The notes under the pieces are model-generated. The model did no database searches. It saw only the letters and a program-made list of their open reading frames with translations, and had not been told where the DNA came from. DNA of 43,397 nt from a virus. This document shows positions 3,885 to 42,271 of this stretch, piece by piece (the first letter of the stretch is position 1; every line of letters begins with the position of its first letter). The translations under genes were made by a program, and so were the position numbers. The stretch is taken from the IMG/VR virus record IMGVR_UViG_3300045120_000203, positions 1 through 43,397 of that record. The stretch is one strand, 5' to 3'.

Positions 3885-4791
3885 AGCCGTAGACCTCCGA
3901 TGGATAGCGGGTGCGGGCGTAGGCGCCGCCGCCGTTCGACTGCGAGCCGCTCGTGCCCGGCGACGTGTTGCCGCCGTAGGTGAGCGTCGACGACGACGTC
4001 GGTGCGGCCCTGACCATCTCGACGTGGACGCCGCGTCCGCCGATCACGACGAGGTCGCCGACCTTGACCTTGCCTCTGTCGTTCGTCCAGCCGCGGTAGC
4101 ACTTCTGGCCCTGCCGGGCGTAGTCCTCGATCTGCGCGACGGACGCGAGATGTGAGTCGATCTTCGCGACGTCGGCGCTCTCGAGCGCGTAGTAGCACCA
4201 GCAGCCGCACCAGGGCTCGCCGCGGAGCCAGGTGCCGTTCGCGCAGCGGTCCTGGCTCGTGCGGATCCCGTCGGGCCGCGAGTCGCTGTTCGAGTTGGCC
4301 GGGTTCTCGGTGTAGCCGACGCGGCCGCTCATATGGTCGAGCGCGACCTGGCGCGGCTGCTTCGTCGGTGCTGGCGGTGTCTTCGCGGCGTCGCGGATCA
4401 GGTTCGCGGAGTAGTCGTCGATCGCCGGCTCGCCGGCGTGCGGCCGGCCTTCCTGCACCCTGACGGAGCGGAGGAAGTTCCAGGTCGAGAGGCCGATGAA
4501 GCCGGTCGGCTGGATCTTCGCCCACTTCTGGATGCCGGCGATGCCGGGGCCGTTGCTCGAGCCGTGCGCGAACCCGTTCGAGAAGGACCGGTCGTAGCTC
4601 GGCGGGTCCCACGGCCACGCGCCGAGCCGGCCGAGCGTCCGCTTCAAGGCGACGAATACGTCGGAGTCCGGGCTCGGCGTCTTGCCCTGCTCGGCGGCGT
4701 CGGGCGGGTAGTACGGGCCCGTCCAGGGGACGTTGACCATCGGGCCGCCCTTCGGCGGCTGCGAGTTCCAGTTACGAGCCGTCTTCCTCAC
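3856..4791 (-). CDS. Endolysin: CHAP-type amidase/peptidase with peptidoglycan-binding-like region
   Basis: A 311-aa cell-wall hydrolase. Residues 45-108 resemble a peptidoglycan-binding segment (GIQKWAKIQPTGFIG). Residues 150-260 carry CHAP/NlpC-type catalytic features: Cys195 in GEPWCGCWCYYAL and His256 in GRGVHVEMV. It would cleave peptide or amide bonds of peptidoglycan at lysis. No signal peptide is visible, so release probably needs a holin, and a candidate lies two genes downstream. The start could be GTG 4791 or ATG 4740 (MVNVPW); the former overlaps the acidic gene at 4772-4879. Confidence 0.8.
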   Translation of the reverse strand: MRKTARNWNSQPPKGGPMVNVPWTGPYYPPDAAEQGKTPSPDSDVFVALKRTLGRLGAWPWDPPSYDRSFSNGFAHGSSNGPGIAGIQKWAKIQPTGFIGLSTWNFLRSVRVQEGRPHAGEPAIDDYSANLIRDAAKTPPAPTKQPRQVALDHMSGRVGYTENPANSNSDSRPDGIRTSQDRCANGTWLRGEPWCGCWCYYALESADVAKIDSHLASVAQIEDYARQGQKCYRGWTNDRGKVKVGDLVVIGGRGVHVEMVRAAPTSSSTLTYGGNTSPGTSGSQSNGGGAYARTRYPSEVYGYALIRYPGD

Positions 4792-4879
4792 CGTCTCCGT
4801 CTTCGTCGGGCTCGGCCTCGTCCGGCTGCGCCGGCTCGGGCTCCGTCGGTTCGGTCTGCGGTGTCTCGGTCGTGCTCAT
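4772..4879 (-). CDS. Tiny acidic protein (35 aa)
   Basis: A minus-strand ATG at 4879 with a near-perfect SD (AAGGAGGA) opens a 35-residue, almost wholly Pro/Glu/Asp protein beginning MSTTETPQTEP and ending DGEEDGS. It overlaps the start of the endolysin, suggesting translational coupling. The strong SD is the main argument that it is real. Function unknown. Confidence 0.55.
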   Translation of the reverse strand: MSTTETPQTEPTEPEPAQPDEAEPDEDGDGEEDGS

Positions 4880-4906
4880 GCGTCCTCCTTCGTCGATGGG
4901 TCGTTC

Positions 4907-5383
4907 TCAGAGTGTGACCGTCGTCGTGTCGGCATACCCGGCGGCGAGCTCCTCGCTCGAGAGCGCGAACGCGACGCCGTCGGTGCCGGTCAGCACGACC
5001 CTCGGCGGCAGGATCAACGCGGTACCGGTAGCCGTCTCGAGCTGCTCGGGCTCGGTGACCTCGCGCGCCTCGTAGACGGAAAGGACGGCGGCGTCGGGCG
5101 GCGTCGGCTCGCGCGGCGCCGGCTGCGGTGGAGGCGCCGGCGGGTTGACGGGCTCGATCGGCTCGGGCTGCGGCGGATCGCCCGGGTCGGCCACCCAGGC
5201 GGCGTGCGCCTCCTCCCATGCGGTGTGGACGGCCGCGCAGGCGGCCTCCCAGTCGGCCGTCGTCTGCGCGTTGAGCTGCTCGATGATCGTCTGCTGCTCG
5301 GCGTAGGCGTCGAGCGCGTTCTGGTAGTTGTCCTGCTGCGCCTGCCAGGAGGCGAGCGCGGTGTTCGCGTAATAGCTGCTCAT
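4907..5383 (-). CDS. Hypothetical tail-region protein with coiled coil and Pro-rich linker
   Basis: A 158-aa protein. The N-terminal 65 residues are Ala/Gln/Trp-rich and helical (SYYANTALASWQAQQDNYQ). Residues 68-95 are Pro-rich (PPQPEPIEPVNPP). The C-terminal part is a small beta-rich segment. It is located just after the collar-type fibre gene, where a fibre chaperone or tail-tip accessory would be expected. No family is recognised, so the role is inference from position. Confidence 0.6.
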   Translation of the reverse strand: MSSYYANTALASWQAQQDNYQNALDAYAEQQTIIEQLNAQTTADWEAACAAVHTAWEEAHAAWVADPGDPPQPEPIEPVNPPAPPPQPAPREPTPPDAAVLSVYEAREVTEPEQLETATGTALILPPRVVLTGTDGVAFALSSEELAAGYADTTTVTL

Positions 5384-29840: not shown

Positions 29841-31814
29841 TCAGCTAGTCCGCATGGGGGCGGCCTTCGGGCCGCCCTTCTTCGTTTTGCGGAGGAGCGG
29901 CGCGAGCGCCTTCCCGACCCCGCGCGACATCGGCGGGCAGACGGAGTTGCCGAGCTGCGCCCACTGCTCGTGGTACTTCCCGGCGAGCTCGTAGTCGTCG
30001 GGGAACCCGAACAGGCGCTTGACCTCAAGGATCGTGAACTTCCGCTTGAGCGTGACGCCGTGCTCGTCCTCCCGTACGACCTTGAAGTGCTGGCCGGCTC
30101 CGCCGCCGCCTTCGATGCCTGCGAGCGTGATCGTCGGCGAGGGGCGGTCGGTGATCTCGCCCGGCGTCGCGAACCGGCCGCGGGTGTCGTGCTCGACGCG
30201 GGTCTGCAGCTCGCCGCTGGTGCGGGCCCCGCTCGCGGTCAAGGTGGGGGTCGGCTCGTCGAGCGGCCCGAAGCGGGGCTCGAACGCGTCGTTCCCGACG
30301 ATCATCTCGACGGAGCCGATCGACGGTGCCTGCGCCGGGATCGCGGGGAACGGCTCGTCGGTCACTTCGCCCTGCGCCCCGTACCAGCCGCCGTGGCCGT
30401 CGTGGTGGACGCGCTGCTCGACCTGGAAATGCTCGGCGTTCCAGCCGCGAGAGCCGCCGGTGACCGCCGGCGCCGGGGTATCGAGCACGTCTTTCGGCGG
30501 TCCGGCGTGGTCGCCGCCCTGCGTGTCATGCATGACGCGCACCTCGACGTCGGAGAACGGGCCCGAATACTTCTCGGCCTCGCCGGCGACGATCGTCGGC
30601 GACGGGCCGTCGATGATGTCGCGCGCCGGCCGCTGCGGGCGCTGCTTGTCGTGGATGACGCGTAGCTCGATCTGGTCGTGCCCCTCGGAGACGGCGGCGA
30701 TCGTCATCGCGGGCCGCTCGAGGATCTCCTGGGCGGGCTCGTTCGGCCGGCCGTTGTCGTGCACGACCCGCACCTCGAGCTTCGACGGCTCCGTGACCGT
30801 CTTCGCCGGATCGCCGTCGTCGAGCTGCACCTCGGTCGGTGTCCCGTTCCCGGCCGCGACCCGTTCCGGGTCGCCCCACGGCGTGCCGCGCTTCGCGACG
30901 ATCGCCGCGTCCGGGTCGAGCCAGGGGAGCGCCTCACGGACGGAGTACCGGTAGCCGAGCGGCTTCGGCCACGGGATCTGCGCGAGCTTCGCCTTCTGCC
31001 AGACGTCGTGGCGGACGCCGGCGAAGATCACCCGCTGCCGCGCCTGCGGCACCCCCATCCACTGCGCGTCCAGGGTGCGGACCTCGACGTGGTAGCCCTG
31101 CTGCTCGAGCGCCGCCCGGATCGCCCGGAAGTAGCCGACGGAGACCCCTTTGGCGAGCCCGGTCACGTTCTCGGCCGCGAACGCTCGCGGCTGCATCTCG
31201 CCGAGCAGCCGCGCGTATTCGAGGAACAGGTCGTCGACGACCTGGCGGGTGCCGGCATGCGCGCGCTCCTGCCCCCACGTCTTCTGCCGCCGGCCCGCGC
31301 TCGAGAACGGCGTGCACGGCGGCGACCCGTCGAACAGATCGAGCTCGCCCTTGCGAACGCCGGCGGCGCGCAGCAGCTCGCGCCCGGAGAGCTTCCTGAT
31401 GTCGCGCTCGAGCACGACCGTCTCGGGGAAGTTGAGCCGGTAGCTCTCGACGGCGAGCGGGTTGACGTCGACGGCGGCGGCCACGCGGTAGCCGGCGAGC
31501 CGGTAGCCGATCGAGGAGCCGCCGGCACCTGCGAACGTCGAGATGCAGACGAGCCCGTTCGACCTCGCGCTCCGGACCTGGGCGAGCGTCGGGGTCTGGT
31601 AGGGCGGCTTCCCGCCCGGCGGCGGCTTCGTGCCGCGCTTCGGCGCGCGCCGGCGCACGTCGCGCATCAGATCGCCCGGCTCGAGATCGACCTCGATCCA
31701 GCCGAACTCGCGCTCGTGCCGGATGGCGGTCGCCGCGATCGTGGGCGCCGGCCGGTCGGTGTCCTGCCATTCGAGCGCGAACCGGGAGCCGGCCCGGGAG
31801 ATCCTGATCTCCAC
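29841..31814 (-). CDS. DNA (cytosine-5) methyltransferase with expanded repetitive target region
   Basis: A 657-aa C5-methyltransferase. Motif I STFAGAGGSSIGY (92-104), motif IV GSPPCTPFSSAG with catalytic Cys167, motif VI AAENVTG (214-220), motif VIII QARQRVIFAG, and C-terminal FTILEVKRLFGFPDDY plus QLGNSVCPP (620-628). Between them, residues 345-565 hold six imperfect repeats of about 33-42 aa, each with a V-x-HD-like start and a PxPTI-like element (PAMTI, PSPTI, PAPAV, PTPTL, PSPTI); a further RPAPTI lies at 21-26. Ordinary single-target enzymes have one such segment. The start is GTG. No cognate endonuclease is seen, so it is probably self-protective. Confidence 0.9.
   Translation of the reverse strand: MEIRISRAGSRFALEWQDTDRPAPTIAATAIRHEREFGWIEVDLEPGDLMRDVRRRAPKRGTKPPPGGKPPYQTPTLAQVRSARSNGLVCISTFAGAGGSSIGYRLAGYRVAAAVDVNPLAVESYRLNFPETVVLERDIRKLSGRELLRAAGVRKGELDLFDGSPPCTPFSSAGRRQKTWGQERAHAGTRQVVDDLFLEYARLLGEMQPRAFAAENVTGLAKGVSVGYFRAIRAALEQQGYHVEVRTLDAQWMGVPQARQRVIFAGVRHDVWQKAKLAQIPWPKPLGYRYSVREALPWLDPDAAIVAKRGTPWGDPERVAAGNGTPTEVQLDDGDPAKTVTEPSKLEVRVVHDNGRPNEPAQEILERPAMTIAAVSEGHDQIELRVIHDKQRPQRPARDIIDGPSPTIVAGEAEKYSGPFSDVEVRVMHDTQGGDHAGPPKDVLDTPAPAVTGGSRGWNAEHFQVEQRVHHDGHGGWYGAQGEVTDEPFPAIPAQAPSIGSVEMIVGNDAFEPRFGPLDEPTPTLTASGARTSGELQTRVEHDTRGRFATPGEITDRPSPTITLAGIEGGGGAGQHFKVVREDEHGVTLKRKFTILEVKRLFGFPDDYELAGKYHEQWAQLGNSVCPPMSRGVGKALAPLLRKTKKGGPKAAPMRTS
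29858..29888 (+). terminator. Rho-independent terminator of the rightward operon
   Basis: Perfect stem GGGCGGCC (29858-29865) / GGCCGCCC (29870-29877) closed by a stable TTCG tetraloop and followed by TTCTTCGTTTT. It ends the rightward operon 50 bp after its last gene. It lies inside the last codons of the convergent methyltransferase gene, so the same bases encode part of that C terminus. Confidence 0.85.
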
Positions 31815-34735: not shown

Positions 34736-35911
34736 TCAGAAGCCTTCCGGGAACCCGTCGTCGTCGGGCGGCGGGTCGGCAGGGCCGGATTCGGCATGCT
34801 CGGCCTCACCAGGTGGCCCAGGATCGCCTCCCGGCTCCGGCGCGGTTGGTTGCTCACCGGTGGCCGGCCCAGAATCCTGGGGCGTCTGGGGGCCTCCGGG
34901 CTCGGGGGTGGCGTCGAACGTGGCGATCAGCTCGTCGAGCATCGCCTTCTCGCCAGCGAGCCTCGCCTTCTTGTCGGCGTCGAGCTGCTCGATCACCTGG
35001 CCGGCCTCGCTGATCGTGAGGTCGTTCGACGAGTCGATCGTGCGGCCGACGACCTTGGAGACGTAGGCGAGGCGGCGGGCCCGGGCGGCGGGCTCGTCGA
35101 GGCCGGCCGCGAAGCCGAGGTCGCGCATCGTCGCGAAGATCCTCCGCTTGTAGGCGTCGGTCGCGAGCGGCTCCGGCGGGATGTCGGGCGTAGGCTGGTC
35201 GTCGGGTGGCGGTGTCGGCGGGACCGGCTGCGCCGGCTGCGGCTCCGCCGGCGCCGCCCCTGCAGCAGGAGCGGCGGGCTGCCGGCGGCGAGTGCGGGCC
35301 GGCTTCGGCGGCGGCGCGTCCGGGGCAGGGTCGAGCACGACGGCGCCGTTCTCCGTGTCGCCCTCGAGCTCCTCGCTCGCCGGGATCCCCAAGGTGACGT
35401 CGGCGAACATCGCCCGGGCCAGCGCCGCCGACGCGCGAGCGCGGAGCATCTCGGCCGGGTACTTCTGCCAGTTGTTGCCGCCGGAGATCCCGGCGCGCTT
35501 CGCGTCGTCGAGCGTCCAGGTGACCCGGCCGACGCGGTCGGAGCCGCGGCGGCGGCCGGCGGCGATCGCTCTCGTCACGGTCGACTCCTCGAACCAGAGC
35601 TCGTGGCCGGCACCGGTCACGAGGCCGCGCTGCGCCTCGGCGGTCAACGTCGGGCGGCCCTGGATCACGGCGACCATCCGCAAGGCGGCCATCGGTTTGA
35701 GGCCGACCTCTGCGCCGGCCAACATGGCGGCGGCGATCGCGGCGGGGTTGCCGCGCAGCGCGGCGGGGACGAACTCGGTGCCGGCGATGAACCCGGCGTA
35801 CTCGGCGGCCGCGCGCAACCTCGCGACGTCGCCGACCGGCCCCTCGATCAGCTCGTCGCCGGGCCGTGAGGCGGGCAGCGGGACCGGGGCTTCGTACTGG
35901 ATGACGGTCAT
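34736..35911 (-). CDS. RecT-like single-strand annealing protein
   Basis: A 391-aa protein. Residues 25-175 are RecT-like: IAAAMLAGAEVGLKPMAALR (59-78), IQGRPTLTAEAQRGLV, VTWTLDDAKRAGI and WQKYPAEMLRARASAALARA (148-167). It would anneal complementary strands exposed by the exonuclease encoded at 37386. The C-terminal half is a Pro/Ala-rich linker plus a helical segment (SEAGQVIEQLDADKKARL), longer than in classical RecT. The ATG at 35911 overlaps the upstream stop. Confidence 0.8.
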   Translation of the reverse strand: MTVIQYEAPVPLPASRPGDELIEGPVGDVARLRAAAEYAGFIAGTEFVPAALRGNPAAIAAAMLAGAEVGLKPMAALRMVAVIQGRPTLTAEAQRGLVTGAGHELWFEESTVTRAIAAGRRRGSDRVGRVTWTLDDAKRAGISGGNNWQKYPAEMLRARASAALARAMFADVTLGIPASEELEGDTENGAVVLDPAPDAPPPKPARTRRRQPAAPAAGAAPAEPQPAQPVPPTPPPDDQPTPDIPPEPLATDAYKRRIFATMRDLGFAAGLDEPAARARRLAYVSKVVGRTIDSSNDLTISEAGQVIEQLDADKKARLAGEKAMLDELIATFDATPEPGGPQTPQDSGPATGEQPTAPEPGGDPGPPGEAEHAESGPADPPPDDDGFPEGF

Positions 35912-36405
35912 CGGTTCTCCTTCGTCAGCTCGCGGCGCCATCGCACCTTCGGGCCCGGTGCCGCTACCGGGTCGCCGAACAGGTCGGTCTCGTATCGCGG
36001 GCGGGTTGGCATGTTCCAGGTCTGGCCGCCGCGGGCTCCTCTCGGCTCGGCGTCGGCGGTGAAGCCGGCGGCGCGCAGGCTCGAGCCGTTCTCGCTCTCG
36101 AGGGTGTAGGTGACGGCGGCGGTGTAGCCGAGCGCGGCGGCGGCCCGGCAGGCGGCTCCGTAGAGCCTTGAGTTCGCGTTCCGGTCGCCGAGCGTGCAGA
36201 CCCGGACGATCTCGATCGTGCGCGGCTCGGCGGCCTGCAGTTTCCGGGCGACGGGGCGGGAGAGGACGGCGACGCCGCGAAGCTCGCCGTTCGAGATCCC
36301 GACGCCGACCTTCCAGCCGACGAGCCGCGGCGCGTGCCGGTGGTGGGTCGCGATGAACAGGCGGGCCTCGGCGAGCGTGATCGGGACGAGCTCGAGCCGG
36401 GTCAC
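35908..36405 (-). CDS. XF1762-like acetyltransferase-fold phage protein
   Basis: A 165-aa protein starting at GTG 36405: RLELVPITLAEARLFIATHH, VGWKVGVGISNGELRGVAVL, RTIEIVRVCTLGDRNANSRLY, SLRAAGF. This order matches the XF1762 family of phage proteins, which look like GNAT-type folds but lack a known substrate. It lies in the recombination/replication cluster with 4-bp overlaps on both sides. Confidence 0.7.
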   Translation of the reverse strand: MTRLELVPITLAEARLFIATHHRHAPRLVGWKVGVGISNGELRGVAVLSRPVARKLQAAEPRTIEIVRVCTLGDRNANSRLYGAACRAAAALGYTAAVTYTLESENGSSLRAAGFTADAEPRGARGGQTWNMPTRPRYETDLFGDPVAAPGPKVRWRRELTKENR

Positions 36406-36677
36406 GGCTCGATCACCGGCCGGCGGTGTCTGGTGGTGAGCGCCATCGGGAACCCGTCGCGGGCGGCCGGTGTCGCTCGGAGCGTGCGCGCCTGGTTCTG
36501 CAGGTCGGTGACCTCGGAGCGCAGGGTGGCGGCGAGCGCCCGGATCTCGTGGCAGGCCTTCTGGCGGCCGAGCGTCTCGAGCACTTCGTGGGCGTCGTCG
36601 AGCTGGTCGAGCGCGGCCTGGATCGCGGCGGCCTGGGCGTCGATCGCGTCGGCGGCTGCGGTGCGCCAGCCGGTCAC
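36402..36677 (-). CDS. Small coiled-coil protein (91 aa)
   Basis: GTG at 36677 with GAGG upstream gives a 91-aa mostly helical protein: IDAQAAAIQAALDQLDDAHE, then ATLRSEVTDLQNQARTLRAT. A dimeric coiled coil is likely. It is coupled to the upstream HTH gene and downstream XF1762-like gene. Function unknown. Confidence 0.6.
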   Translation of the reverse strand: MTGWRTAAADAIDAQAAAIQAALDQLDDAHEVLETLGRQKACHEIRALAATLRSEVTDLQNQARTLRATPAARDGFPMALTTRHRRPVIEP

Positions 36678-37177
36678 CGTGAGCCTCTGCGCGCGCGTGC
36701 GCGGGCGAGGTTCTCGTCGCGCCAGACGGCCCGGGCCGGGTCGTGCGAGACGCAGAAGTCCGAGCCGGCCACGGCCGGCCGCCGGCACCGCTCGCCCTTG
36801 CGCGGATACTGCGTGCGGGCGCCGGCACATCTGACGTCACGGACGTCGCCGCGCTCGCGGCGCAGCTTCCGCCGATGCTCGAGATAGGCCGGCGACGAGC
36901 GGGAGCCGCGAGCCCCGAGGCCGTGCACCGTCGACCGGGCGACACTGGCGGCGACGCGGTCGCGGAGCACGTATCCCTCGGCGTGGAACGCGGCGAGCAG
37001 CGCCATCGCCGCCGATCCCGGCGACGCGAACCCGTGCCGCTCCCAGATCAGCGCCCCGATCTGCCGCAGCGACAGGCCCGTCTCGTAGAGCTTCCAGGCG
37101 GCTTTGACCTGGGCGACGGTGAGGCGCCGCTTGTAGCGGGAGCGGCCGTCCGGCCGGCGGCTGATCGACGTCGTCAT
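36674..37177 (-). CDS. HTH DNA-binding protein with C-terminal zinc motif
   Basis: A 167-aa basic protein. Residues 10-65 form a resolvase-type HTH (RLTVAQVKAAWKLYETGLSL, RQIGALIWERHGF). The C-terminal 40 residues have Cys/His spaced as a zinc knuckle (RCAGARTQYPRKGERC, DFCVSH). The small terminase subunit has a similar Cys segment at its N terminus. A transcription regulator or recombination accessory is possible. Confidence 0.65.
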   Translation of the reverse strand: MTTSISRRPDGRSRYKRRLTVAQVKAAWKLYETGLSLRQIGALIWERHGFASPGSAAMALLAAFHAEGYVLRDRVAASVARSTVHGLGARGSRSSPAYLEHRRKLRRERGDVRDVRCAGARTQYPRKGERCRRPAVAGSDFCVSHDPARAVWRDENLARARARRGSR

Positions 37178-39870: not shown

Positions 39871-40064
39871 CCGTCGTCCTCTGGCATGCCGAGCCGGCGG
39901 CGCCGCTCGTTACGCTCCCGGCGGGCCTCCTCCCGCTCGGCCGCGCTGCGGCGGCGCCGTTCGGCTGCGGCATGCCTCTCCCGTCGCCGGGAGACTTCGA
40001 GGATCAGGAACCAGACCGCGACGACCACGGCGAGCAGGACGAGCGTCCAGACGAGCCAGGTCAC
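39867..40064 (-). CDS. Single-pass membrane protein with Arg-rich tail (65 aa)
   Basis: GTG at 40064 begins a 65-aa protein: one hydrophobic helix (WLVWTLVLLAVVVAVWFLIL) followed by a very Arg/Glu-rich helix (RRRERHAAAERRRRSAAERE). It overlaps the transglycosylase start by 4 bp. With the other membrane protein it flanks the enzyme, suggesting a three-gene envelope unit. Confidence 0.58.
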   Translation of the reverse strand: MTWLVWTLVLLAVVVAVWFLILEVSRRRERHAAAERRRRSAAEREEARRERNERRRRLGMPEDDG

Positions 40065-40225
40065 GCAGCGACCCGGGCGGCGGTGGCTTGCCGGCGGTCG
40101 TCGCGGATCCGGCGAAGCTCCTTGTTCGTCGGGTAGAGCCGAAACCCGCAGCGGTCGCACTCACGCGAGGCGGGCTCGCTCGTGACCTCGCAGAACGGGC
40201 ACCAGGGGCGGAAGCCGCCGGTCAC
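40061..40225 (-). CDS. Small zinc-ribbon protein (54 aa)
   Basis: GTG at 40225 gives a 54-aa protein with WCPFCEVTSEP and RECDRCGFRLYP, two CxxC knuckles forming a zinc ribbon, then a basic helix (NKELRRIRDDRRQATAARVA). It directly follows the DpdA-like gene (4-bp overlap). It might serve that modification module or act independently. Confidence 0.6.
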   Translation of the reverse strand: MTGGFRPWCPFCEVTSEPASRECDRCGFRLYPTNKELRRIRDDRRQATAARVAA

Positions 40226-40833
40226 TCGGCCTCCTCGTCGAGCATGAGTTGGACGTCGGCGGCGGCGTGGTCGGTGAACGCGTCGAGCCAGCGGTCGCGG
40301 AACCAGGAGAGGCTCGTGCCGTCGAACGAGTCGCAGCCGATCGCCTTCGCGTACCGGACGCGGCGGTGCCCGTTGACCCGCCCCATGTGCGTCCAGAGCC
40401 CGCGGTAGTTCGCCTCGCGGACGAGCCGGCGGGCCGGGTCGCCCATCTTCCATTCGTCGCCGCCGCCGACGAAGACCGCCCGGATCTTGTCCCACGGCAT
40501 CCAGTCGGCCGGCTGGCCGTCTTGGATCACGTAGGCGACCGGCAGGTCGAGCTCGGCGAGGATCGGCTGCCAGACCTCGAACCGGTCGAAGGTGTCCTCC
40601 CAGTCGCCGACGACGTCGGGGGCGGTCACGAACAGGCAGCCGGGCAGGCCGGCGATCCCGTCGAGCATCTGGCAGTAGCGGGTCTCGTCCCAGGCTGAGT
40701 AGGCGTCGTTGTCGGCCGCCCACGGCCAGGCGCCGAGGTCGGTGTAGAACCGGCGCGGCGAGGAGAGAACGCCGAGGTTCGGACGCCAGTGCGCCGCGAG
40801 CGTGACCGGGCTCGAATGGACGAGAACCATCAC
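40222..40833 (-). CDS. dpdA: DpdA-like DNA 7-deazaguanine transglycosylase
   Basis: A 203-aa protein of the TGT-like phage DpdA type: FVTAPDVVGDWEDT with Asp73 (68-81), LPVAYVIQDGQ, VFVGGGDEWKMG (120-131), WTHMGRVNGHRR and GCDSFDGTSLS (166-176). Family members exchange guanine in DNA for a 7-deazaguanine precursor (preQ0 or preQ1). The short length is usual for phage versions. It is translationally coupled to a QueF-like and a YhhQ-like gene (4-bp overlaps), which supports the role. Assigned by motif reading; the exact base made is unknown. Confidence 0.78.
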   Translation of the reverse strand: MMVLVHSSPVTLAAHWRPNLGVLSSPRRFYTDLGAWPWAADNDAYSAWDETRYCQMLDGIAGLPGCLFVTAPDVVGDWEDTFDRFEVWQPILAELDLPVAYVIQDGQPADWMPWDKIRAVFVGGGDEWKMGDPARRLVREANYRGLWTHMGRVNGHRRVRYAKAIGCDSFDGTSLSWFRDRWLDAFTDHAAADVQLMLDEEAE

Positions 40834-41123
40834 GTGTGCCCGTGCTCCGACCGTTCCGGGTCGAGCGGCTCCGGCCAGGCGGTGCAGCGCGTCTCGACCC
40901 CGGAGTGGCGGCCGGTCGTGATCACCTTCGCCCCGATCTCGTCGGCGAGCGTCTGAGTCAGGTTCTCCTGGTAGACCGGGTCGCCGGTCGCGGCGGCGAT
41001 CGTCGCGAGGATCTCCTCGACGGGGATCAGCCAGTCGCTGCGGATCGTGACCCGGTAGATGTCTCTCGACCCGTCGACGGGGCAGATCGCCGCGATCTCG
41101 GTGCGGTAGACGACCTTGATCAT
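40830..41123 (-). CDS. T-fold protein resembling QueF / QueF-like
   Basis: A 97-aa protein. AAICPVDGSRD (11-21) places Cys14 and Asp21 at the spacing of the QueF nucleophile Cys and acidic residue (CPxxGxxD). DPVYQENLTQTLA gives Glu53 where QueF has FHED. The NADPH-binding ESK motif of true QueF is not clear here (IPVEEILATI instead). In known families this combination is seen in QueF-like amidinotransferases, but GTP-cyclohydrolase-type T-folds are also similar. It likely modifies the deazaguanine handled by the neighbouring enzyme. It is shorter than usual QueF. Confidence 0.55.
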   Translation of the reverse strand: MIKVVYRTEIAAICPVDGSRDIYRVTIRSDWLIPVEEILATIAAATGDPVYQENLTQTLADEIGAKVITTGRHSGVETRCTAWPEPLDPERSEHGHT

Positions 41124-41668
41124 GTGAGCACCGGCAGCAGGCGGCGGCGGCCGGCGGTCACGAGCCCGCCCGCGGCGACCATGTAGACCTTCGCGATGAA
41201 CGTGCCGGCGAAGAACGCGGCCAGCGACGAGCTGCCGAACGCGAGCACGAGGAACACGTAGGTGTCGAGCGCCGACCCGGCGACCCCGGACGCGATGACG
41301 CCGGCCGTCAGGTTCCGGTTCCGCAGCGGCGTAAAGACGACCGCTTCCAATGTCTCGGAGCACGCGAACGCGCAGACGGACGCGACGGCGATCTTCTGCA
41401 GGCTCGTCCAGCCGGCGGCGATCCCGACGATGTAGGAGAGCGCGCCGGCGGCGACCATGAGCGGGATCGCCCAGCCGAGCCCTCGGAGCTGCTGCAGCCA
41501 GTCGCGGATCACGAGCACCGCCCCGACGGCGAGGACACCGGCCGGCACCGTGTACGACCGGCCGATCCAGGGGATCGTGACGAGGTACCTCGAGGCGAGC
41601 CAGTTCGCGAGCACGACGAGCGCGACGTAGACGGCGGCGAGCAGAGTGAACAGGCGGGTCTGGGTCAT
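41120..41668 (-). CDS. YhhQ/VUT-family transporter (queuosine precursor transporter)
   Basis: A 182-aa polytopic membrane protein with about six hydrophobic segments. Family-like motifs are VLANWLASRYLVTIP (18-32), LVIRDWLQQLRGLGW, and the long signature SETLEAVVFTPLRNRN followed by TAGVIASGVAGSALDTYVF. YhhQ members import preQ0/preQ1. It is the first of three coupled genes (ATGA overlap with the T-fold gene), so it probably supplies scavenged precursor. Substrate is inferred from family and neighbours. Confidence 0.78.
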   Translation of the reverse strand: MTQTRLFTLLAAVYVALVVLANWLASRYLVTIPWIGRSYTVPAGVLAVGAVLVIRDWLQQLRGLGWAIPLMVAAGALSYIVGIAAGWTSLQKIAVASVCAFACSETLEAVVFTPLRNRNLTAGVIASGVAGSALDTYVFLVLAFGSSSLAAFFAGTFIAKVYMVAAGGLVTAGRRRLLPVLT

Positions 41669-41877
41669 CGTTGGGCCTCCTGTAGGGCTCGGTCGAGGTG
41701 TCTGGCGGCGGCGGCGATCCTGATCAGGGCGCGCTCGAGGTCGAGCGCGATCAGACCGCCGCGCGGGATCTCGTCGGCCCAGGAGCGGAGGCCGTCGATG
41801 CCGGCCTGCAGCCCGTAGAGCGTCTCCTGGGCGCGCTCGATCCCGCCGGCGACCTCCTCACGCGTCGGGACGCTCAC
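41665..41877 (-). CDS. Small helical protein (70 aa), also truncated at the left end
   Basis: A 70-aa helical protein: REEVAGGIERAQETLYGLQA, SWADEIPRGGLIALDLERAL and a basic C terminus. The start overlaps the upstream gene by 4 bp and the stop overlaps the transporter start, so it is part of the modification operon. A fragment of the same gene reappears at 1-81. Function unknown. Confidence 0.62.
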   Translation of the reverse strand: MSVPTREEVAGGIERAQETLYGLQAGIDGLRSWADEIPRGGLIALDLERALIRIAAAARHLDRALQEAQR

Positions 41878-42119
41878 CGGTCGCCGCCTATCGGCCGTTT
41901 ACACCCGTTCGAGTCCGCAAGGAGTTGCTCCAGCCGCTCGCAGGCGTCCTCCATCCAGGTCAGGTTCACGGCTAGCACGTCGTAGTGCTCCGTGTCGTCG
42001 CCTTCGCGAAGCTCATAGTTGTCGAGCCGACGCTGCTGCTTCTTCACCCGGGCGCGAGCGAGGCCGAGCAACCAGCCGAGAGCGCGTTCATCGAACGTCT
42101 TGTGGGTGTCGGTGCTCAC
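41874..42119 (-). CDS. Small helical protein (81 aa) ending in a repeat-encoded tail
   Basis: GTG at 42119 (GTGA overlap) begins an 81-aa mostly helical protein: FDERALGWLLGLARARVKKQ, then VNLTWMEDACERLEQLLADS. The last residues DSNGCKRP come from a 22-bp repeat that also ends the upstream ORF. Thus the C terminus is repeat-derived. It is a possible cassette-like gene (see the array). Function unknown. Confidence 0.6.
   Translation of the reverse strand: MSTDTHKTFDERALGWLLGLARARVKKQQRRLDNYELREGDDTEHYDVLAVNLTWMEDACERLEQLLADSNGCKRPIGGDR
41897..41918. repeat. GTTCGAG-core repeat, copy 1
   Basis: Contains TTACACCCGTTCGAGTCCGC, identical in three places (41899-41918, 42126-42145, 42249-42268). 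This copy is at the 3' end of the small gene at 41874-42119. The core GTTCGAGTCC resembles a tRNA T-arm and the loop of the first inverted repeat at 42434-42470. Confidence 0.8.
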
Positions 42120-42250
42120 GGTCGTTTACACCCGTTCGAGTCCGCTAGGCGTGGCCCTGACCCGACGCAGTGCCCGCAGCCCTTGCCGCCGCAGATCGAG
42201 CAGACGGTCGGGAACGTCTTGGGTGTCGTGGTCGTGTTGAACGGATGGTT
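42116..42250 (-). CDS. Small zinc-knuckle ORF, start uncertain
   Basis: The frame contains TVCSICGGKGCGHCVGSG, a C-x2-C-x4-C-x2-C DnaJ-like zinc knuckle, then the repeat-encoded RLADSNGCKRP tail and a stop overlapping the next GTG. No ATG/GTG/TTG lies in the short segment itself; the open frame continues upstream through the repeats and attachment region (possible ATG near 42469, in the inverted repeat). Coupling to the next gene argues that the 3' part is translated. The 5' end is unresolved. Confidence 0.4.
   Translation of the reverse strand, partial: NHPFNTTTTPKTFPTVCSICGGKGCGHCVGSGPRLADSNGCKRP
42124..42148. repeat. GTTCGAG-core repeat, copy 2
   Basis: Second copy of the 20-bp identical repeat, with a shared flank extending to GCTAG. 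It lies at the 3' end of the zinc-knuckle ORF at 42116-42250, directly before the GTG start of the next small gene. Confidence 0.8.
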
Positions 42251-42271
42251 ACACCCGTTCGAGTCCGCTAG
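42247..42271. repeat. GTTCGAG-core repeat, copy 3
   Basis: Third copy; it lies upstream of the zinc-knuckle ORF and next to the attachment region. Spacing between copies is 227 and 123 bp, each interval holding one small ORF. Confidence 0.8.

Follow-up and report, generated by a model that had tools for sequence, protein, structure and literature searches.

Three overlapping genes of a viral genome probably form a salvage cassette for 7-deazaguanine modification of DNA, by which a precursor would be imported, inserted into DNA and then converted at its nitrile group. They encode a VUT/COG1738 (YhhQ-type) membrane transporter, a small T-fold protein of the QueF-Like type and a DpdA-like guanine transglycosylase, and lie in an IMG/VR virus record of 43,397 bp (termed here the window, that is, the whole stretch of DNA analysed), the completeness of whose ends is unproven. 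The proposal is built upon gene families, predicted folds, active-site residues, gene linkage and the lack of synthesis genes in the record; from these we infer the substrate, the DNA target, the order of the steps, the product and a protection from restriction.

In the proposed mechanism, the VUT transporter would first bring preQ0 (or preQ1) into the infected cell; the DpdA-like transglycosylase would then exchange guanine in phage DNA for this precursor; and Cys14 of the T-fold protein would attack the nitrile of the inserted preQ0, with Asp21 acting as acid/base and Glu53 anchoring the base. With ammonia, the most plausible product would be the amidine of deoxyarchaeosine (dG+), an amide (dADG) or an amine (dPreQ1) being less plausible. 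An earlier note on this DNA had placed the chemistry before insertion (import-modify-insert); the order import-insert-modify now appears likelier, because the T-fold protein resembles QueF-Like, an enzyme that works on nucleic acid once the base has been inserted, more than it does QueF, whose substrate for reduction is free preQ0.

Results

The gene run and its surroundings

The three genes are transcribed from the minus strand in the order VUT (41120-41668; 182 aa, ATG start), T-fold (40830-41123; 97 aa, ATG start) and DpdA-like (40222-40833; 203 aa, GTG start, with an alternative ATG one codon later), with a 4-bp overlap at each junction. The coordinates, strands and overlaps are as the earlier note had them, and every motif that it quoted (FVTAPD, GGGDEWK, HMGRVN, GCDSFDGT, CPVDGSRD and YQEN) is present. 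Such overlaps are not peculiar to these genes: they recur at two small upstream genes--one at 41665-41877 on the minus strand, for which no family was found, and its overlapping neighbour at 41874-42119--and at a zinc-ribbon-like small gene directly downstream (40061-40225, minus strand; sub-threshold zinc-ribbon matches). Because the overlaps run on into small genes on both sides, overlap by itself cannot delimit the cassette; the genes at 41665-41877 and 40061-40225 lie outside the claimed pathway. No promoter or terminator consensus was found within the gene cluster, nor any DNA-level match of the cassette to a phage record. An integrase frame is truncated at the right end of the record, so that a gene absent from the record may still exist in the phage. 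The portal protein is closest to those of phages of Thermobifida, Streptomyces and other actinobacteria, and the host is therefore probably an actinobacterium; the virus is probably one of soil actinobacteria.

The window holds other genes associated with DNA modification: a Mom-like DNA modification protein at 36034-36405 on the minus strand, inside the ORF 35908-36945 (phrog_1384, E 7.8e-25), and a DNA methyltransferase gene at 29841-31814. The phage may thus carry three kinds of DNA modification (cassette, Mom-like and methyltransferase). A gene that looks similar to the Mom-like one stands just upstream (4503-4955) of the DpdA-VUT pair of another locus, L130, described below. Three near-exact copies of TTTACACCCGTTCGAGTCCGC, where none would be expected by chance, occur at 41898-41918 (within the small gene 41874-42119), 42125-42145 and 42248-42268. 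They resemble a tRNA T-arm and lie near the cut-off integrase gene, and are possibly remnants of att sites; no tRNA gene is present in the record.

The transporter and its linkage to DpdA-like genes

The transporter (41120-41668) is, on its sequence, a member of the VUT family, as had been claimed: it passes the Pfam Vut_1 model (33.7 bits against a cut-off of 27.2), is assigned to phrog_4899 and has five hydrophobic segments in a simple hydropathy scan. Against the NCBIfam queuosine precursor transporter it scores 24.5 bits, below the equivalog cut-off of 50.95; hence it is named here for the VUT family only, and its predicted substrate--a 7-deazaguanine precursor (preQ0 or preQ1)--is taken from its linkage to neighbouring genes.

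This linkage recurs. In 16 distinct loci a VUT gene and a member of the DpdA-like family stand side by side, whichever of the two comes first, a count that includes the window, the locus L128 and Arthrobacter phage Aoka, where a T-fold or QueF-type gene intervenes. VUT mostly comes first; the DpdA-like gene does so in L012, L128 and L129. Among these loci are those of the cultured phages StevieRay and ReqiPine5, whose VUT is annotated merely as a hypothetical or membrane protein. All three families of the window recur in L128, where DpdA comes first, then T-fold, then VUT, and the junctions once more overlap by 4 bp. In Aoka (ON755180), gp38, gp39 and gp40 correspond to VUT, QueF-type and DpdA-like proteins in the order seen in the window; gp38 passes the Pfam Vut_1 cut-off, while gp39 passes that of Pfam QueF and retains the QueF motif almost whole, as ELHSLRAYF. 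(Aoka gp39, at L148:4643-4972, is annotated as hypothetical; searches of viral contigs and of other phages, at the sensitivity applied, brought up no relative of it.) A pattern search of the remaining VUT-DpdA loci turned up no T-fold neighbour. At L130, a Pfam DpdA gene (E 2.5e-82) is followed by a VUT gene that belongs to the window's subfamily, at 56% identity; there the importer is kept while the transglycosylase family differs. Gene linkage in unrelated phages thus supports a common pathway that does without synthesis genes.

In two loci (L018:5709-5972 and L024:5702-5944), the place expected for VUT, immediately upstream of the DpdA-like gene, is taken by a small membrane protein; it is PnuC-like by eye, with no Pfam match over cut-off, and is possibly another type of precursor importer.

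The DpdA-like protein

The product of 40222-40833 is predicted to be a small guanine transglycosylase that exchanges a base in DNA. It is recognised by no model of Pfam (TGT and DpdA included) or NCBIfam, and belongs to phrog_15826; homologues at about 34 to 49% identity occur in 24 phage records, and many of those from mycobacterial and Arthrobacter phages are annotated 'DpdA-like tRNA-guanine transglycosylase'. The predicted structure is a confident TIM barrel (pLDDT 93.5), with Zymomonas TGT among its best fold matches (Z 14.6 over 192 residues, rmsd 3.0); pyruvate kinase and ribulose epimerase score level with TGT, so that the fold alone cannot decide the protein's identity. A profile built from 19 relatives finds a match in phrog_887, a family of phage queuine-transglycosylases (hhalign E 4.2e-10, probability 97%); comparison of the family with three bacterial TGTs was not significant. 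Positions that never vary include Asp73, Gln104, the pair Gly123-Gly124, the run HMGRVN and Asp171. Of the two aspartates, which are candidates for catalytic residues, Asp171 sits 21 residues past the Met of HMG, a spacing near that of the TGT nucleophile. The DpdA-like assignment of the earlier note is upheld by the homologues, the predicted fold and the profile match taken together.

The name borne by these homologues, together with the archaeal QueF-Like enzyme's action upon tRNA (PMC5485725), raises the question of whether the cassette targets host or phage tRNA (for a queuosine- or archaeosine-like mark) instead of DNA. This is improbable: the DpdA-like protein, at 203 aa, is much smaller than TGT and is tied by profile comparison to DpdA-type families of phages, the VUT partner at L130 belongs to Pfam DpdA, a DNA-modifying family, and Mom-like and DNA-methyltransferase genes also occur in the window.

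Apart from a prophage T-fold-DpdA locus (L127), the genome of Pseudomonas duriflava encodes a DpdA-like bacterial protein that matches TGT weakly (L143). In Escherichia phage SHIN8 (L008:5932-6524) and also in phiG7, which are Seuratvirus relatives, the DpdA-like gene is broken into two frames that overlap; next to it are a complete preQ0 pathway and a classical DpdA. PAPS-reductase-like genes adjoin or lie near DpdA-like genes in unrelated phages (L006:5514-6431, L009:7367-8410 and L002:6488-7318).

The T-fold protein

The product of 40830-41123 is a single-domain protein, predicted to be an enzyme that handles nitriles (with Cys14, Asp21, Glu36 and Glu53). It is likewise recognised by no Pfam or NCBIfam model, QueF included; it is assigned to phrog_37496. 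A single-sequence search of viral contigs with this protein (P0002) gave no close relatives, and its family was reached only through an alignment that included the Mae-JY30 and Epa33 homologues; a match in RcTiptonus was dropped, since it sits within a protein that reads as a genuine glycosyltransferase. PDB sequence searches returned a true relative of neither this nor the DpdA-like protein. Structure prediction, which the earlier note had proposed as a check, yields a T-fold: the AlphaFold2 model (pLDDT 90.1, from an alignment of 23 sequences) has the strand-strand-helix-helix-strand-strand order typical of that fold, and its nearest solved structures are of archaeosine synthase QueF-Like, which fills ranks 1-13 of a Foldseek search against the PDB (E 4e-5 to 2.5e-4, TM about 0.75; best matches 5k0p/5jyx). 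With a second aligner, QueF-Like scores Z 13.1 over 88 residues; human GTP cyclohydrolase I, at Z 12.2, is less than one unit behind and so ties with it, and unimodular QueF reaches Z 9.4. Together with the Aoka relative that passes Pfam QueF, the predicted structure sustains a T-fold/QueF-type assignment. GTP cyclohydrolase I and QueD T-folds have zinc-binding Cys/His ligands. The family of the window protein has just one conserved Cys and one conserved His, and the GTP cyclohydrolase and QueD readings were accordingly ruled out for want of metal ligands.

Residues 1-88 of the model align on residues 8-105 of the QueF-Like chain, an offset that, provided no gap occurs there, sets Cys14 upon Cys21, the thioimide-forming catalytic cysteine of QueF-Like (PMC5485725). 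Cys14, Pro15, Tyr23, Glu36, Glu53, His73 and Gly75 are invariant across the 23 family members; and Cys14, Asp21 and Glu53 line up with the QueF catalytic Cys and Asp and substrate Glu--in the B. subtilis enzyme, Cys55, Asp62 and Glu97 (PMC5372742). Asp21 occupies the place of the QueF general acid and is kept in the window, L128 and Aoka; in most family members this position is Ile, and an Asp is found instead at C+3. Profile comparison of the family with two Pseudomonas QueFs was not significant, though the Cys and Glu fell in register.

Might the protein nonetheless be a true QueF-type reductase, which within the same salvage cassette would convert free preQ0 to preQ1 before insertion and so give dPreQ1 DNA? 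Aoka gp39, at the equivalent position, passes Pfam QueF with its near-complete motif, and phage Dp-1, which has a predicted QueF-L, contained dPreQ1, not dG+ (PMC6884629). The NADPH-binding motif of QueF, E(S/L)K(S/A)hK(L/Y)(Y/F/W) (PMC5372742), is missing from the window protein, however, with Glu36 (in VEEILATI) its sole remnant, and the model is closer to QueF-Like than to unimodular QueF by the Z scores above; the reductase reading is therefore considered unlikely. With the motif lost apart from its first Glu, a QueF-Like mode of action, which proceeds without NADPH, is favoured over reduction.

The T-fold gene is directly followed by a DpdA-family gene of the phrog_887 type in 76 of 80 viral loci, the other four being broken or cut at a contig end, and likewise in 18 of 18 Pseudomonas genome loci and in seven further loci. 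Most of these loci belong to one group of related Pseudomonas prophages, so that the independent cases are few: this prophage group, Microcystis phage Mae-JY30 (where the two genes are adjacent in reversed order) and the actinobacterial trio. The near-constant adjacency, the very small size of the protein and the failure of most of the family to retain Asp21 are what one would see if it were a non-enzymatic binding or delivery subunit that passes preQ0 to the DpdA-like protein. That role is quite unlikely, given that the Cys at the catalytic position and the substrate-anchoring Glu are invariant and that most small DpdA-like proteins have no T-fold neighbour.

The source of the precursor

The claim that preQ0 synthesis genes are lacking is borne out within the record: FolE, QueD and QueC are absent from its 43,397 bp, as is any radical-SAM match that would point to QueE. 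QueC is found in 0 of 17 VUT-DpdA records, many of which are fragments, and neither QueC nor VUT in any of the 32 T-fold-DpdA records tested, as would be expected if the hosts of the latter supply preQ0. Four other records with a DpdA-like gene do contain QueC, namely Sonali, SHIN8 (which also has a weak VUT match), R29Z and the L020 contig. At L020 the DpdA-like gene comes after QueD, behind QueC and QueE, and at L021 it follows QueE; VUT is absent from both. In Sonali, SHIN8 and R29Z the DpdA-like gene is beside preQ0 synthesis genes, and Sonali and SHIN8 additionally carry a classical DpdA; the role of the DpdA-like protein in these phages could therefore be other than primary insertion.

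These patterns bear upon the most sceptical explanation, that three unrelated genes happen to adjoin in a dense phage operon and that VUT carries another vitamin. The 4-bp overlaps extend throughout the gene cluster, VUT is a broad family and the equivalog cut-off was missed, all of which would suit such a view; yet VUT and DpdA-like genes adjoin in 16 distinct loci in either order, VUT is paired with a different DpdA family at L130, and QueC, QueE and QueD replace it elsewhere, which makes chance proximity very improbable.

The salvage reading can be sharpened, tentatively and with less than even confidence, into deoxyarchaeosine salvage by three proteins, in which a miniature QueF-Like enzyme would act on preQ0 in DNA and in which modules that make or import the precursor would be freely swapped beside the same transglycosylase family. 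For the salvage mechanism as a whole, caution is counselled by the Dp-1 result cited above and by the DpdA-only phage Orion, whose DNA, after growth in M. smegmatis, was wholly free of 7-deazaguanine (PMC6884629). If the sharper reading is true, the T-fold protein would be the first T-fold enzyme shown to act on DNA.

Discussion

Several DpdA subfamilies have reportedly been defined in a 2023 NAR paper on further 7-deazaguanine derivatives and in a 2024 review. Phages 9g, CAjan and Rosebush (dG+/dPreQ0; Hutinet 2019, PMC6884629) likewise use a DpdA-type transglycosylase to place 7-deazaguanine in DNA, but encode FolE, QueD, QueE and QueC, whereas the window record has none of these and has an importer instead. 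A phage VUT/YhhQ in a 7-deazaguanine cluster or genome has also been described, as a preQ0 transporter, from Vid5 (PMC6266253), EC151/Seuratvirus (PMC8310023) and haloviruses HCTV-1/16 (PMC8651126); in those viruses the transporter accompanies the synthesis genes, while in the window it replaces them and overlaps the T-fold gene. The DpdA-only phages Orion and Salmonella 7-11 (PMC6884629) resemble the window in having DpdA without synthesis genes but, unlike it, have no importer or nitrile enzyme described alongside, and Orion DNA is unmodified. Pyrobaculum calidifontis QueF-Like (5k0p/5jyx; PMC5485725) shares with the phage T-fold protein its predicted fold, its length of about 100 aa and the catalytic position of its single conserved Cys; the two are about 20% identical, and the archaeal enzyme acts on preQ0-tRNA. 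Closest of all in layout is Aoka, where gp38-gp40 are of the same three gene types in the same order within a genome that lacks QueC, the difference being that gp39 both passes Pfam QueF and has the near-complete motif and that the window T-fold protein does neither. Phage VUT transporters and DpdA-only phages are thus already known; what is new relative to the cited systems is the compact VUT/T-fold/DpdA-like combination and its recurrence. The suggestion of a compact form of the pathway is in keeping with this recurrence in relatives, that is, in L128, in the Aoka trio and in VUT-DpdA pairs.

The proposal has several consequences. A function is suggested for PHROG families 4899, 37496 and 15826, all three of which are listed as unknown. 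YhhQ homologues had been noted in some phages as uncorrelated with any group (PMC6884629); contrary to that view, a correlation of phage VUT genes with a DpdA subgroup is seen here. Because Aoka is a cultured phage, the cassette idea is testable; and a precursor-poor medium may, it is suggested, explain why DpdA-only phages look unmodified in the laboratory. More generally, import of a precursor would let phages without preQ0 genes modify their DNA, even in hosts that possibly lack such genes themselves; the cassette would offer a compact disguise against bacterial defences, with the building block taken up ready-made.
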